Shown in pieces: positions 8,419-63,667 of a stretch of DNA of 64,000 bases. A model generated the notes under the pieces. The model was not told the DNA's origin and ran no database searches. It saw only the letters and a program-made list of their open reading frames with translations. Each line of letters opens with the position of its first letter. Position 1 is the stretch's first letter. Position numbers and translations under genes: made by a program. The DNA comes from Martinezella rhizogenes (GTDB lineage Bacteria; Pseudomonadota; Alphaproteobacteria; Rhizobiales; Rhizobiaceae): assembly GCF_007002745.1 (NCBI RefSeq), contig NZ_SGNY01000003.1, positions 248,001 through 312,000 of the forward strand, in the 5' to 3' direction.

Positions 8419-9107
8419 GTGATTCTAACTGCCCGTTAATCATTCCTGCCGTAACGTGACAAACGCGTGTCAGATGGACGACAGGAAATATTAAGCAAAA
8501 ACAATGGCTTGTAGGAGGTCTCCCGGAAAATGGGAAGCTTTCTCTACGGAAGTCGTGACGAGTTTTGAGTCAAGAAGATTTTTATTTTTTTGCCAAAACA
8601 GGCTCTCTAAAATTGCCAAAATTGAATCTCATTGATTCATAAGCGATTCTGCTTCGGGCCTTGCCCGTGATGCAAAACGGCCTTTGTGAGTCAATGGCCG
8701 ATCTGAGTTTTTGCAGAAAAAACGCCATTGATCTCTCCCCACGATCCTGCCTAAATGCATTCCAACAAGGGGTGCGGATCTCAGTCCACAGATTATCTCG
8801 ATGATCGTATCGACGATATTCACCTTCTTGCTGGCGGGTCTTTCGGGGCCCGTTTTCTCAGGTCATGGAGCTTTTTGCGCCGTTTCGGTCTCGGAACGGG
8901 CAGGGGTTTTTTGTCCTCAAGAATACGCCTTAGGGTTGTGGCGAAAGGAGCGTCTTTAGCGTGTCGCAGGCCTCTCCATGAGGGGGAGGGAAATGGGATA
9001 ACCGGCTCGCAAACAAGTAGTAGCCTTTGATGCTCTTTCGAGGGGAGCACTGAAGGCCGGAATAATACGAGGGGGATCTCTGGCGATCGATTTTTGATCG
9101 TCAGGCT
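8419..9107 (+). promoter_or_regulatory. Long gene-free dnaA upstream region
   Basis: About 690 bases between the rpsT terminator and dnaA hold no credible gene. The AT-rich part (about 8565-8650) has poly-T and poly-A runs. Five GANTC sites lie at 8567, 8624, 8634, 8645 and 8688, two of them arranged as the palindrome GAATCTCATTGATTC. No good match to the DnaA box TTATCCACA was found, so I do not call it an origin. An imperfect hairpin at 9080-9104 abuts the first dnaA ATG. The dnaA promoter is probably in the AT-rich part, implying a long leader. Confidence 0.5.
9080..9104 (+). promoter_or_regulatory. Imperfect hairpin immediately upstream of dnaA
   Basis: CTGGCGATC (9080-9088) pairs with GATCGTCAG (9096-9104) with one G-T pair, around the loop GATTTTT. 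It ends 3 bases before the ATG at 9108 and covers the place where a ribosome binding site for that start would lie. Confidence 0.45.
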
Positions 9108-60898: not shown

Positions 60899-61843
60899 TC
60901 AGAGCCGGGCAAAACGTTCCGTCAGCAATTCGAAGAAACCGTCCGCATCCACGTTGCGCATCACGCGGGCATTGGCGGGGCGTTCGGTCACGCGCCACCA
61001 GTCAACCACCGTCATGCCCATGGTCAGTTCGGACGTGGCCTCGATTTCGACGTTACACTCGCGACCCTGAAACAGCTCGGGTCTGATGAGATAGGCAATG
61101 ACGGATGGATCGTGCAGCGGGCCGCCGTCCGAACCGTATTTCTCGATGTCGAAGCGCTCGAAGAACTCCAGCATTTCCGCCATGGCGATGGCCGGGCGTG
61201 TGCCGATGTCGCGAATGCGGCTGACCCGCGCCTTGGTGGTCAGAAGCTTATGGGTGACGTCGAGCGGCATCATGACAACAGGAATGCCGGCACGGAAGAC
61301 GATATCGGCAGCCTGCGGATCGACATAGATGTTGAACTCGGCCGCCGGCGTGATATTGCCGCCCTCGAAGAAGCCGCCGCCCATCATCACCAATTCCTGG
61401 ATGCGGTCGGCAATCTCGGGCGCTTTAAGCAGTGCCAGCGCCACATTGGTGAGCGCCCCGAGCGTGCAGAGCGTCACCGTGCCGGCGGGTTCCCGCATCA
61501 GCGTTTCGATGATGAAATCGACCGCATGCTGCTTTTGGGCCTCCATCGTCGGTTCATCGAGAACAGGGCCGTCGAGACCGGTGCTGCCGTGAACATGCTC
61601 GGCGGTAATGGGCTTGCGCACCAGCGGCTTCTCTGCGCCCTCATAGACGGGAATATCGGTGCGGCCGCACAATTCGCAGATGATGCGAATATTGCGGCTG
61701 GTCAGTTTCAGCGGGACGTTGCCTGCGACGGCGCACAATCCGAGAATGTCGATTTCATCAGGGCTTGCGAAAGCGAGCATGATTGCCGCCGCGTCGTCCT
61801 GGCCCGGATCGGTGTCGATGATGATTTTTCTGCGTTCTGCCAT
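60899..61843 (-). CDS. Inosine-uridine preferring nucleoside hydrolase
   Basis: A 314-residue ribonucleoside hydrolase that splits nucleosides into base and ribose for salvage. The calcium-site signature DTDPGQDDAAAIMLA is at about 9-23. Other conserved parts are GAEKPLVRKP, VHGSTGLDGP, LCTLGALTNVALAL, MMGGGFFEGGNITPAAEFNIYVDPQAA and PLDVTH. The C-terminal active-site histidine region lies near GGPLHDPSVIAYL (about 236-248). ATG 61843 is chosen (MAERRKIIIDTDPG); the frame runs 75 residues further upstream over hsp20's regulatory region. Purine versus pyrimidine preference cannot be read. Confidence 0.92.
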   Translation of the reverse strand: MAERRKIIIDTDPGQDDAAAIMLAFASPDEIDILGLCAVAGNVPLKLTSRNIRIICELCGRTDIPVYEGAEKPLVRKPITAEHVHGSTGLDGPVLDEPTMEAQKQHAVDFIIETLMREPAGTVTLCTLGALTNVALALLKAPEIADRIQELVMMGGGFFEGGNITPAAEFNIYVDPQAADIVFRAGIPVVMMPLDVTHKLLTTKARVSRIRDIGTRPAIAMAEMLEFFERFDIEKYGSDGGPLHDPSVIAYLIRPELFQGRECNVEIEATSELTMGMTVVDWWRVTERPANARVMRNVDADGFFELLTERFARL

Positions 61844-61938
61844 GTCTTGCCCGCCGTTGAGGTGAGCGCTTTTTTCGAGCGACGGATGCTCACTTGTCAA
61901 GCTCATTCCTCGGCGTCCCCTTCGCGCCGTTCTCCCGT

Positions 61939-61968
61939 CTTGCGCATCGCGGCCTGGCTTCCCATATT
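61939..61968 (+). promoter_or_regulatory. Candidate RpoH (sigma-32) promoter of hsp20
   Basis: CTTGCG (61939-61944), 16 bases, then CCCATATT (61961-61968). This fits the heat-shock pattern of a CTTG -35 and a C-rich CCxxAT -10. It would start transcription about 75 bases before the hsp20 ATG, with the thermometer-like leader between. Confidence 0.5.
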
Positions 61969-61981
61969 GTTTGAGCCGGTT

Positions 61982-62040
61982 CGCTTGACCGGCAAGGTTG
62001 CCGGAAGCGGGACCGCGAAACGTCGCTTGGTTGCAAGGAC
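61982..62040 (+). ncRNA. ROSE-type RNA thermometer in the hsp20 leader
   Basis: Two hairpins cover the leader. The first: CGCTT-GA-CCGGCAA-GG-TTGCCGG-AAGCG (61982-62009), a perfect 7-bp stem extended by 5 bp. The second: GTC-G-CTTG (62022-62029), loop GTTG, CAAGGAC (62034-62040). In it the ribosome binding site AAGGA pairs with TCGCTT, leaving G62025 bulged. UCGCU opposite the Shine-Dalgarno is the UYGCU signature of ROSE elements, which melt at heat-shock temperature and allow translation of small heat-shock genes in rhizobia. Confidence 0.7.
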
Positions 62041-62049
62041 AGAAAAGAT

Positions 62050-62475
62050 ATGAGCCGCATGACGCCATTCACCCACCCGCTTCTGCTGGGCTTTGATGCC
62101 ATGGAAAAAACGCTGGAGCGCATGGCGAAGGCCAATGACGGCTATCCCCCCTATAACATCGAACGGCTGCCCGGGGTCGAAGACGTGCCGGAGCGCCTGC
62201 GCATCACCATCGCTGTTGCCGGGTTTTCACAGGACGATCTGGATGTGACGACGGCCGACAACCAGCTTGTCATTCGCGGTCGCCAGCAGGAACAGGAAAA
62301 GCGGGACTTCCTCTATAGGGGCATTGCGGCGCGCCAGTTCCAGCGGGTCTTCGTGCTTGCCGATGGCATGCAGGTCAGGGAAGCGCGCATGCGCAACGGC
62401 CTTCTTTCCATCGATCTGGTGCGGCCTGAAATTTCGAACGTGGTAAAGAAAATTAATATTTCCGTCTCAGAGTAG
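62050..62475 (+). CDS. Small heat-shock protein, Hsp20/alpha-crystallin family
   Basis: ATP-independent holdase that binds unfolding proteins. The 141-residue product has an N-terminal arm (PFTHPLLLGFDAMEKTLERM, NDGYPPYNIERL) and the alpha-crystallin domain (about 40-135; LRITIAVAGFSQDDLDVTT, LVIRGRQ, GIAARQFQRVFVLADGMQV, ARMRNGLLSIDL). The C-terminal I-x-I anchoring motif (INISV) is present. The YPPYNIE start places it with the IbpA-like class A. Expression is probably controlled by an RpoH-like promoter and a ROSE thermometer upstream. The DUF1150 gene follows after 56 bases. Confidence 0.95.
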   Translation: MSRMTPFTHPLLLGFDAMEKTLERMAKANDGYPPYNIERLPGVEDVPERLRITIAVAGFSQDDLDVTTADNQLVIRGRQQEQEKRDFLYRGIAARQFQRVFVLADGMQVREARMRNGLLSIDLVRPEISNVVKKINISVSE

Positions 62476-62531: not shown

Positions 62532-62789
62532 ATGCTTTTAAAAGAAGCGCATGCGCGTCTCACCCGATCCCAGCTGGCCCATATCGGCGAAGGAGAAGTG
62601 GGATATATCCGCAAAATCCGTGCGGAAGACGTAAGCCGCTGTTTCCCGGAAGCACCTGATCTCGATCCGCAACTGGATCTCTGGGCGCTGTTTGGTGCGG
62701 ATGGCACGCCGATCCTCCTGACCGACAACCGTTCAAGTACCTTTTTCAAGGCTGCCGAAGACGATCTCAAGACCGTCAGCCTGCACTAG
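62532..62789 (+). CDS. DUF1150 family protein
   Basis: An 85-residue cytosolic protein of the alphaproteobacterial DUF1150 family, often found next to hsp20 genes. Family-like segments are GEVGYIRKIRAEDV, LDLWALFGADGTPILLTDNRSS and a short C-terminal stretch (FFKAAEDDLKTVSLH). No function is established. The ATG has GGAGG just upstream and the gene is 56 bases from hsp20, so it is probably on the heat-induced transcript. Its TAG stop falls within a CTAGAGC repeat. Confidence 0.88.
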   Translation: MLLKEAHARLTRSQLAHIGEGEVGYIRKIRAEDVSRCFPEAPDLDPQLDLWALFGADGTPILLTDNRSSTFFKAAEDDLKTVSLH

Positions 62790-62902: not shown

Positions 62903-62930
62903 AAAAAGCCCGCTTTTGAGCGGGCTTTTT
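62903..62930 (-). terminator. Rho-independent terminator between DUF1150 and EF-hand genes
   Basis: AAAAAGCCCGC, loop TTTTGA, GCGGGCTTTTT: a symmetrical 11-bp stem, 11 bases beyond the stop of the minus-strand EF-hand gene; it can stop transcription from both sides. Confidence 0.9.
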
Positions 62931-62941
62931 CCTTGATGGAT

Positions 62942-63544
62942 TTAAAGGAACGGGCGGTCCGGCATATCGTCGATCGAGATGACGCCGTCCTTGTTCTTGT
63001 CCAGCCGCTCGAACATTTTCTCGCCGGCTGCGGTGAATTCGGCCTTGCTGACCTGCCCGTTCTCGTCGGTATCGGCCCAGCGGAGCATGCCGAGGCCCGC
63101 ACCCTTGCCGCCATGCTTGCCCCAGCCCTGATGACCGGAACGGCCGCCATGCTCGCGTTCGGCATGTCTTTCGGCGCGCTTGCCCTCCGGGCCTTTGCCG
63201 TCTTCGGCTTTGGCGTCCTCACGCTCGGGGCGCGGATTGGCGGCGCGGAAAGCTTCCATTTTCGCCTGGCGATATTCGCGCATTTCCTTCGGCGTGATCG
63301 AACCGTCCTTATCCTTGTCGATCTCGGTGAAAAGCGCGTCCTGTCGTGCGGCGAATTCTTCCTTCGAAATCTTGCCGTCCTTGTTGGTATCGGCAACCTT
63401 CAGGAGGTGAATGAAGGCAGCTTCCTGGCGGATCGGCATGCGATCCTTATGGCCTTTGCCGGGTGCGGCGAAACTTGCCGTTGCGGCCGTGCTGAGCACA
63501 AGGGCTGCGCCAAGAGCAGAGAGGGCGATTTTTCGTGTGGTCAT
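62942..63544 (-). CDS. Secreted EF-hand calcium-binding protein
   Basis: A 200-residue protein with a signal peptide (MTTRKIALSALGAALVLSTA..., likely cut after SFA at about 26) and four EF-hand loops. They are DTNKDGKISKEE (about 52-63), DKDKDGSITPKE (76-87), DTDENGQVSKAE (158-169) and DKNKDGVISIDD (182-193). The last ends in Asp instead of the usual Glu at position 12. A charged Gly/His/Lys/Glu-rich spacer (about 100-152) separates the two pairs. ATG 63544 lies 8 bases from AAAGG; ATG 63550 is too close. Likely a periplasmic calcium buffer or sensor; function unknown. Confidence 0.88.
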   Translation of the reverse strand: MTTRKIALSALGAALVLSTAATASFAAPGKGHKDRMPIRQEAAFIHLLKVADTNKDGKISKEEFAARQDALFTEIDKDKDGSITPKEMREYRQAKMEAFRAANPRPEREDAKAEDGKGPEGKRAERHAEREHGGRSGHQGWGKHGGKGAGLGMLRWADTDENGQVSKAEFTAAGEKMFERLDKNKDGVISIDDMPDRPFL

Positions 63545-63667
63545 CGTCATTACCTTTCTTTGGTGTCCCTGAAGAAAAGATAGTGACCTCTATCGAGCCT
63601 CACCACTTAAACATCGGTAAGGTGGATGAAGCTTCGGTAATGTTGCGGCGTAACTCGGCTATGGCGC

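Follow-up and report, generated by a model that had tools for sequence, protein, structure and literature searches.

The window analysed here, a stretch of 64,000 nucleotides, carries on its forward strand an hsp20 gene for a protein of 141 amino acids (62050..62475; PF00011, 62.9 bits), followed on the same strand by a DUF1150 gene (62532..62789; PF06620, 103.8 bits) with which it probably forms an operon. A divergent nucleoside hydrolase gene on the reverse strand (60899..61842; PF01156), with its probable start at 61842, lies upstream, and the gap of 207 nt between it and hsp20 holds the leader considered below. A DUF1150 homologue stands beside the small heat-shock gene in the examined flank of all 80 named relatives, tying this protein of unknown function to the small heat-shock protein, and a nucleoside hydrolase homologue occurs in the examined flank of 67 of the 80. 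The window belongs to Agrobacterium, A. tumefaciens and its neighbours being the named relatives at 96-99% protein identity. Farther downstream an EF-hand protein gene (62942-63550, reverse strand) faces the DUF1150 gene, and an inverted repeat between the two, AAAAAGCCCGC...GCGGGCTTTTT at 62903-62930, is likely a two-way terminator. Elsewhere in the window, the Rhizobiales small RNA Atu_C3 (RF02498) is matched at 8761-8916 on the forward strand with 177 bits.

Two HSP20 genes are present in the genome of the window and four in genome G203, of which one is on contig C1, one on C2 and two on C3. We take these contigs to be the circular chromosome, the linear chromosome and the pAt plasmid of strain C58, a label based in part on the HSP20 gene layout. 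According to PMC2885654, the circular chromosome carries hspC (atu0375), the linear chromosome hspL, and pAt both hspAT1 and hspAT2. Because the layout of G203 matches this description and its C1 HSP20 protein is identical to that of the window but for two residues, the window gene is, judged by its sequence, the hspC orthologue.

Conservation was followed in 198 hspC leaders: those of the 80 named loci, 21 other loci (of 30, the remaining 9 duplicating named loci or the window and being left out), 95 more genomes of the family, the window and C58. They cover part of the family, in which 195 of 199 genomes have a match. A putative RpoH (sigma-32)-type promoter spans 61939..61967 on the forward strand, with CTTG at 61939-61942 and CCATAT at 61962-61967 separated by 19 nt, a pattern that resembles the consensus of RpoH promoters. 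CCATAT is present in 196 of the 198 leaders and the upstream CTTG in 185, and the spacing is exactly 19 nt in 167. Transcription would be expected to start near 61974.

Three forward-strand hairpins can be drawn between this position and the start codon. The last of them, hairpin 2 (62022..62040), has the form GUC-G-CUUG/GUUG/CAAGGAC, with G62025 bulged and seven pairs (62022-62040, 62023-62039, 62024-62038, 62026-62037, 62027-62036, 62028-62035 and 62029-62034). The sequence-only reading had drawn exactly this pairing, with its GUUG loop and single bulged G, and had described the AAGGA ribosome binding site as fully paired, which it is: every base of the Shine-Dalgarno sequence (SD; 62035..62039), 10 nt from the ATG at 62050, lies in the hairpin, and UCGCU at 62023-62027 pairs with AGGA at 62036-62039. 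The free energy of hairpin 2 at 37 C is -7.3 kcal/mol, and the median of the hspC set is -6.2. Shuffled sequences fold as well as the native one in 9 of 200 cases for 62018-62045, in 59 of 200 for 62012-62052 and in 64 of 200 for 61960-62075, and the folding z-scores of the window leader are weak to moderate (-0.36 to -1.92). Hairpin 2 is not exceptional by folding energy alone. An alternative helix, GCGA-AACG-UCGC, that would free the SD was set aside as a chance pairing; by eye it is absent in L004 and L010.

Upstream lie hairpin 0 (GCCGGU/ACCGGC; 61975..61993), examined within the A. tumefaciens complex, and hairpin 1 (GGUU-G-CCG/GAAG/CGGGACC; 61996..62014), with G62000 bulged. In the lowest-energy fold of the window the two are merged into one long hairpin, and the three-hairpin fold costs 4.3 kcal/mol at 37 C (-25.8 versus -30.1). 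Hairpin 2 is nevertheless part of the fold in all 15 leaders of the complex (14 distinct sequences, L013 being identical to G229), and 13 of these, one of them from the species of the window, have three hairpins, of which the middle one also bulges a G; the exceptions are the window and L010. The second, very stable upstream hairpin of the sequence-only reading thus holds as the lowest-energy fold of this strain, but it occurs in only 2 of the 15 leaders, and the conserved hairpin is a different one (61996-62014). Hairpins 1 and 2 are identical in the window and C58.

The two conserved hairpins resemble each other, the core of hairpin 1 (N-Y-G-C-Y...R-G-G-N') echoing that of hairpin 2 (U-Y-G-C-U...A-G-G-A). 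Under strict search conditions 173 of 196 leaders have this core upstream of hairpin 2 (shuffles: 5.0% of 3920), and 164 of 196 still have it when six or more pairs are demanded (shuffles: 2.0%).

Conservation of the SD hairpin is far beyond chance. Hairpin 2 with its one bulged G is present in 194 of the 198 leaders, in which the anti-SD 5' arm is GUCGCU (192 leaders) or GUUGCU (2) and the 3' arm is AGGAC (189) or AGGGC (5). A U(U/C)GCU arm with a bulged G is therefore opposite the SD in 194 of 198 leaders, in keeping with the earlier proposal that UCGCU at this position is a ROSE signature; the available passages of PMC3669281 name U(U/C)GCU as the hallmark of ROSE elements. The hairpin is missing from L131, L179, L210 and L212. 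Model R1 still matches the element in L131, L179 and L212, although not in L210, and these matches suggest that a different start codon is used in those three.

Compensatory changes were sought in alignment A1, which holds 62 leaders of less than 78% identity and leaves out the four misses and C58. In hairpin 1 (columns 41-69), both sides change in seven of nine pairs and 82.8% of cells are paired; its bulged G is present in 62 of 62 leaders and the C that follows in 61. In hairpin 2, both sides change in three of eight pairs, three pairs are invariant and 93.8% of cells are paired, one pair being U-A in 37 leaders, C-G in 16 and U-G in 7. The covariation score over both hairpins is 0.390, compared with 0.194 (sd 0.011) for shuffled partners and 0.053-0.169 for slid partners, and 156 cells are changed on both sides, compared with 67 after shuffling. 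The columns of A1 vary so much that the count of pairs changed on both sides (10 of 17) does not exceed the shuffled one (9.8). RNAalifold predicts 11 pairs on A1, all of them within hairpins 1 and 2. In hairpin 2 the core pairs hardly vary within A1 and so contribute no covariation themselves, and across the 62 diverged leaders compensatory changes are stronger in hairpin 1 than in the SD hairpin. The alignment check proposed for 62022-62040 thus brought out compensatory changes, in three of the eight pairs there. The two-hairpin structure and its conservation are firm.

Model R1 found the leader in all 80 named relatives (14 in its training set, 66 outside it) with 29.5-57.8 bits, the next best match scoring 14.2. 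Searched across the class with strict filters that lose weak matches, it gave matches at E<=0.01 in 25 of 289 genomes. Besides the window, 13 of 26 such matches precede HSP20 genes, including all six with E<1e-7; the examined flanks of the remaining 13 showed no HSP20 frame. A further R1 match, G000:C2:88219 (E 6.4e-4), falls within an open reading frame and was put down to chance.

The curated Rfam families respond less readily. A search with the ROSE families had been suggested with the first description of the hairpin, and it returned no ROSE match in 61600-62300 at E<=10. RF00435, with its 45-bit threshold, had none in the window and none at E<=1 in the genome of the window, where 150 of 337 candidates were scored and both HSP20 loci were also scanned directly. 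The same family does match hspAT1 (69.2 bits) and hspAT2 (58.1 bits) in G203; the instances in Agrobacterium that Rfam recognises are these two and not the hspC leader. RF02523 (ROSE_3) comes closer. Among 20 diverged hspC leaders, five match it with 24.5-28.6 bits, below the gathering score of 43; all five Rfam matches listed at E<=1 for these leaders are to ROSE_3, lie on the leader and are in the sense orientation. Over all 25 distinct hspC leaders scanned at E<=1, the ROSE_3 matches remain these five; a separate set of seven hspC leaders gave a single match, which is one of them. No Rfam gathering score was reached in any of 20 loci (19 relatives and the hspL locus of the same genome as the window). 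The hspC leader is below the membership scores of the curated Rfam ROSE families and, judged by its sequence, is probably related to ROSE_3.

In a class-wide search, ROSE_3 exceeded its cut-off in none of 240 genomes and gave 15 weak matches. Among the 14 weak loci examined (L230 left out), only L224 adjoins an HSP20 gene, and the best two sub-threshold matches, L220 and L221, precede clpB. At L222 a ROSE_3-like match coincides with an R1-like one (near 1500-1568; G300:C1:57428; 26.3 bits), and GUUGCUCCACGGAGGAC stands directly before an ATG; this ATG opens a frame of 61 aa without any Pfam match, and no adjacent HSP20 gene turned up.

ROSE elements are the commonest type of bacterial RNA thermometer. 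Features of a ROSE-like class are present in the hspC leader, namely its place before a small heat-shock gene, a U(U/C)GCU arm on the SD and compensatory changes. No description of this leader was found in the titles and passages of the open-licence literature searched. A passage in PMC3669281 cites an earlier prediction of more than 40 ROSE candidates in alpha- and gamma-proteobacteria, a list that may include hspC leaders.

A ROSE-type translational lock on hspC is likely, and we hold with rather more confidence than doubt that the leader of hspC-DUF1150 is a compact lock of this type, loosened by warming or another signal. The RpoH-like promoter would give a 5' leader of about 75 nt. Within it the anti-SD arm GUCGCU of hairpin 2 pairs with the whole SD, leaving one G bulged, and at low temperature the paired SD would deny access to the 30S subunit. 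The conserved bulged-G hairpin 1 would probably protect the anti-SD arm from pairing with sequence farther upstream and favour the folding of hairpin 2. Warming, or some other destabilising signal, may then loosen hairpin 2 around the bulged G, and translation would rise. Repression of translation, the role of hairpin 1 and the type of promoter are the parts of this scheme that we infer.

Predictions of SD opening bear on the heat response. Between 25 and 42 C the predicted opening rises from 0.16 to 0.29 in the window (1.8-fold) and from 0.26 to 0.27 in C58 hspC (1.1-fold); the corresponding figures are 0.0011 to 0.0094 for hspAT1 (8.6-fold) and 0.0005 to 0.0207 for hspAT2 (38.6-fold). The median opening ratio is 5.6 over 195 hspC leaders versus 4.8 over the leaders of 32 control ORFs of the window, not all of which need be genes, and the two sets are not separable by predicted SD closure or its temperature dependence. 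Since the SD-opening figures vary with the length of coding sequence included and ignore non-canonical pairs, they neither prove nor exclude a thermometer. The weak to moderate z-scores, together with an SD accessibility that does not set this leader apart from the control leaders, led us to exclude energy as support for the lock. A weakened thermometer in the A. tumefaciens complex was also considered and dropped, the local hairpin being as strong as that of relatives. The high SD openness in the complex came from folding the leader together with 30 nt of coding sequence. When this was cut to 6 nt, the probability of the pair 62024-62038 was 0.99 at 25 C, falling to 0.98 at 42 C.

According to the passages available from PMC3504140, tagged HspC of C58 is not heat-inducible (data not shown there), and an earlier study is cited for hspC mRNA being likewise not heat-inducible; the other three small heat-shock genes are described as heat-induced in the accessible part of PMC2885654, by which the same is implied for hspC. 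The two papers are from one group and, in these passages, both lean on Balsiger et al. 2004. Acetosyringone is reported to have raised hspC mRNA and HspC-HA modestly (PMC3504140), and an hspC promoter fusion to have shown no acetosyringone response (PMC2885654, in the part available). A measurable heat response of hspC in Agrobacterium is therefore partly contradicted, for C58. The small predicted opening, the reported lack of heat induction in C58 and the failure to reach any ROSE threshold were all counted against the ROSE-type lock. Of the original proposal, a ROSE-type RNA thermometer controlling hsp20 translation, the ROSE-type architecture stands, backed by covariation, and the thermometer is contradicted in part by the report on HspC in C58 (PMC3504140, as far as its passages go).

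One alternative is a true thermometer in most Rhizobiaceae that is masked in C58 by poor transcription of hspC or an unstable mRNA. This overlaps with the ROSE-type lock, so that the odds given to the two are not exclusive, and we regard it as possible but doubtful. The retention of lock and promoter in nearly all of the 198 sampled leaders and the 5.6-fold median opening speak for it, but the 4.8-fold median of the control leaders means that the calculation does not single out hspC. A second possibility is that hairpin 2 is a translational lock but no heat sensor in Agrobacterium, opened instead by a protein, a small RNA or growth state. The behaviour of HspC-HA expressed from its native promoter, which the passages of PMC3504140 describe as not heat-inducible and as modestly raised by acetosyringone along with the mRNA, fits such a lock, as do the small predicted opening in the window and C58 and the sameness of hairpins 1 and 2 in both. 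Yet the RpoH-like promoter and the ROSE core are conserved together, the energy of hairpin 2 is ordinary, the statement on heat consists of data not shown and a cited earlier study, and the promoter fusion was unresponsive to acetosyringone (PMC2885654, in the part available); we consider this possibility unlikely. That hairpin 2 arose by chance, its conservation coming from the SD and its spacing alone, is scarcely credible: the weak to moderate z-scores would agree with it, but the anti-SD arm varies as little as the SD itself, unlike loop and flanks, and pair types change together in both hairpins (0.390 against 0.05-0.17 for slid controls), which already refutes it.

The bulged-G hairpin is found before other heat-shock genes as well. 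The two best sub-threshold ROSE_3 matches precede clpB, and leaders of clpB and dnaK were then examined. The clpB set comprises 34 loci, with no start found in L331, L332, L339 and L349; a bulged-G core hairpin with at least six pairs occurs within 130 nt in all 30 leaders (28 of 28 from Rhizobiaceae), as against 7% of shuffles. Under strict positions, 18 of the 28 have two such hairpins. The clpB leader of the genome of the window (L315) carries its hairpin about 110 nt before the start; its relatives are L323-L352. In alignment A2, of the 28 Rhizobiaceae clpB leaders, covariation over both hairpins is 0.520 versus 0.265 +/- 0.021 for shuffled partners and at most 0.233 for slid ones, and 14 of 16 pairs are changed on both sides. 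By eye, these hairpins leave the SD uncovered, and TGGAGA or a similar SD lies downstream.

In the relatives set, made up mostly of Agrobacterium, 28 of 30 dnaK loci have the hairpin (3.4% of shuffles), and so do 27 of 37 dnaK leaders across family and order (5.1% of shuffles); the latter set consists of one Agrobacterium and 36 genomes from elsewhere in the family or order, with L385 and L404 lacking a usable start. Alignment A3 gives a covariation of 0.478 for dnaK hairpin 1 versus 0.305 +/- 0.024 for shuffled and at most 0.267 for slid partners, with four pairs changed on both sides, not above the shuffles (3.8). Ahead of the dnaK SD stands another Y-G-C motif, whose G and C are invariant (37 of 37 leaders). 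The SD can be paired around a bulged G in 16 of the 37, but this occurs in 23% of shuffles, and an SD lock in dnaK leaders outside Agrobacterium is not claimed. In the relatives set, CUC-G-CU/AG-GAG or a longer form occurs in 17 of 30 leaders, all 17 from Agrobacterium. The SD of Agrobacterium dnaK sits in CUC-G-CUUCAAGGAG (own dnaK leader L360; set L353-L409). Three weak R1 matches (G000:C3:65236, G203:C1:128104 and G205:C2:111401) directly precede dnaK. No relevant Rfam family was matched at E<=0.5 in 12 clpB and 10 dnaK loci.

The core is likewise present in four of four Agrobacterium leaders of hspL, a gene described as RpoH-controlled in the accessible part of PMC2885654. R1 matches hspL with 20.7 bits in the genome of the window (L001:1308-1377) and 21.6 bits in G203 (L114:312-384), and the hspL leader carries both bulged-G hairpins. 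As controls, ORF leaders of the window had the core in 4 of 49 cases, window tiles in 2.4% of 984, and clpA-like leaders in none of four. Before clpB and dnaK the hairpin mostly lies away from the SD, so the hairpin as such implies no SD lock.

We suggest tentatively that the bulged-G hairpin is a leader module shared by heat-shock genes in Rhizobiales (hspC, hspL, clpB, dnaK), in hspC placed over the SD and upstream of it and in clpB usually in two copies upstream of the SD, and that it is a common RNA signal of which the ROSE lock is a special case. If so, the module might be a fold that melts with heat or a site recognised by a single common factor, the ROSE lock would be the case where the SD was drawn into the hairpin, and an hspC lock that does not answer to heat alone could be explained. 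ROSE-type leaders in Alphaproteobacteria are spread more widely than the RNA catalogue detects, and if the hairpins work, major chaperones of Rhizobiales would have a level of regulation within their mRNA leaders in common. The hspC leader offers a clean test, with a conserved lock on a gene that the accessible literature reports as unresponsive to heat.

Among known systems, ROSE_3 is similar in having two hairpins, a bulged G in the first (GAU-G-CCG...CGGGUC), a hairpin over the SD and a start codon just after; the first hairpin and its CCG/CGG core were compared by eye, from the consensus lines and A1. Its second hairpin differs in having nine pairs with an inner loop. The ROSE elements of hspAT1 and hspAT2 (RF00435) also precede small heat-shock genes and have a UUGCU anti-SD arm with a bulged G, and the first hairpin of the RF00435 consensus likewise has a bulged G next to CC/GG, but these elements are larger, with a long SD stem of -8.8 kcal/mol at 37 C and -12.5 at 25 C. 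In S. meliloti, ibpA is described as having a predicted ROSE element (PMC2873474, in the passages available). A Sinorhizobium genome carries the R1 element at its hspC-type gene (45.1 bits). The same genome has a second chromosomal small heat-shock gene, presumably ibpA, with UUGCU before AAGGAGGA. The short ROSE-like thermometers of Pseudomonas ibpA, compared with the hspC leader through their description in the accessible part of PMC3669281, differ in having been tested by reporters and probing; they resemble it in possessing only two hairpins, hairpin I being stable and hairpin II short, with U(U/C)GCU flanked by G-C pairs, and in a promoter of the sigma-32 type.
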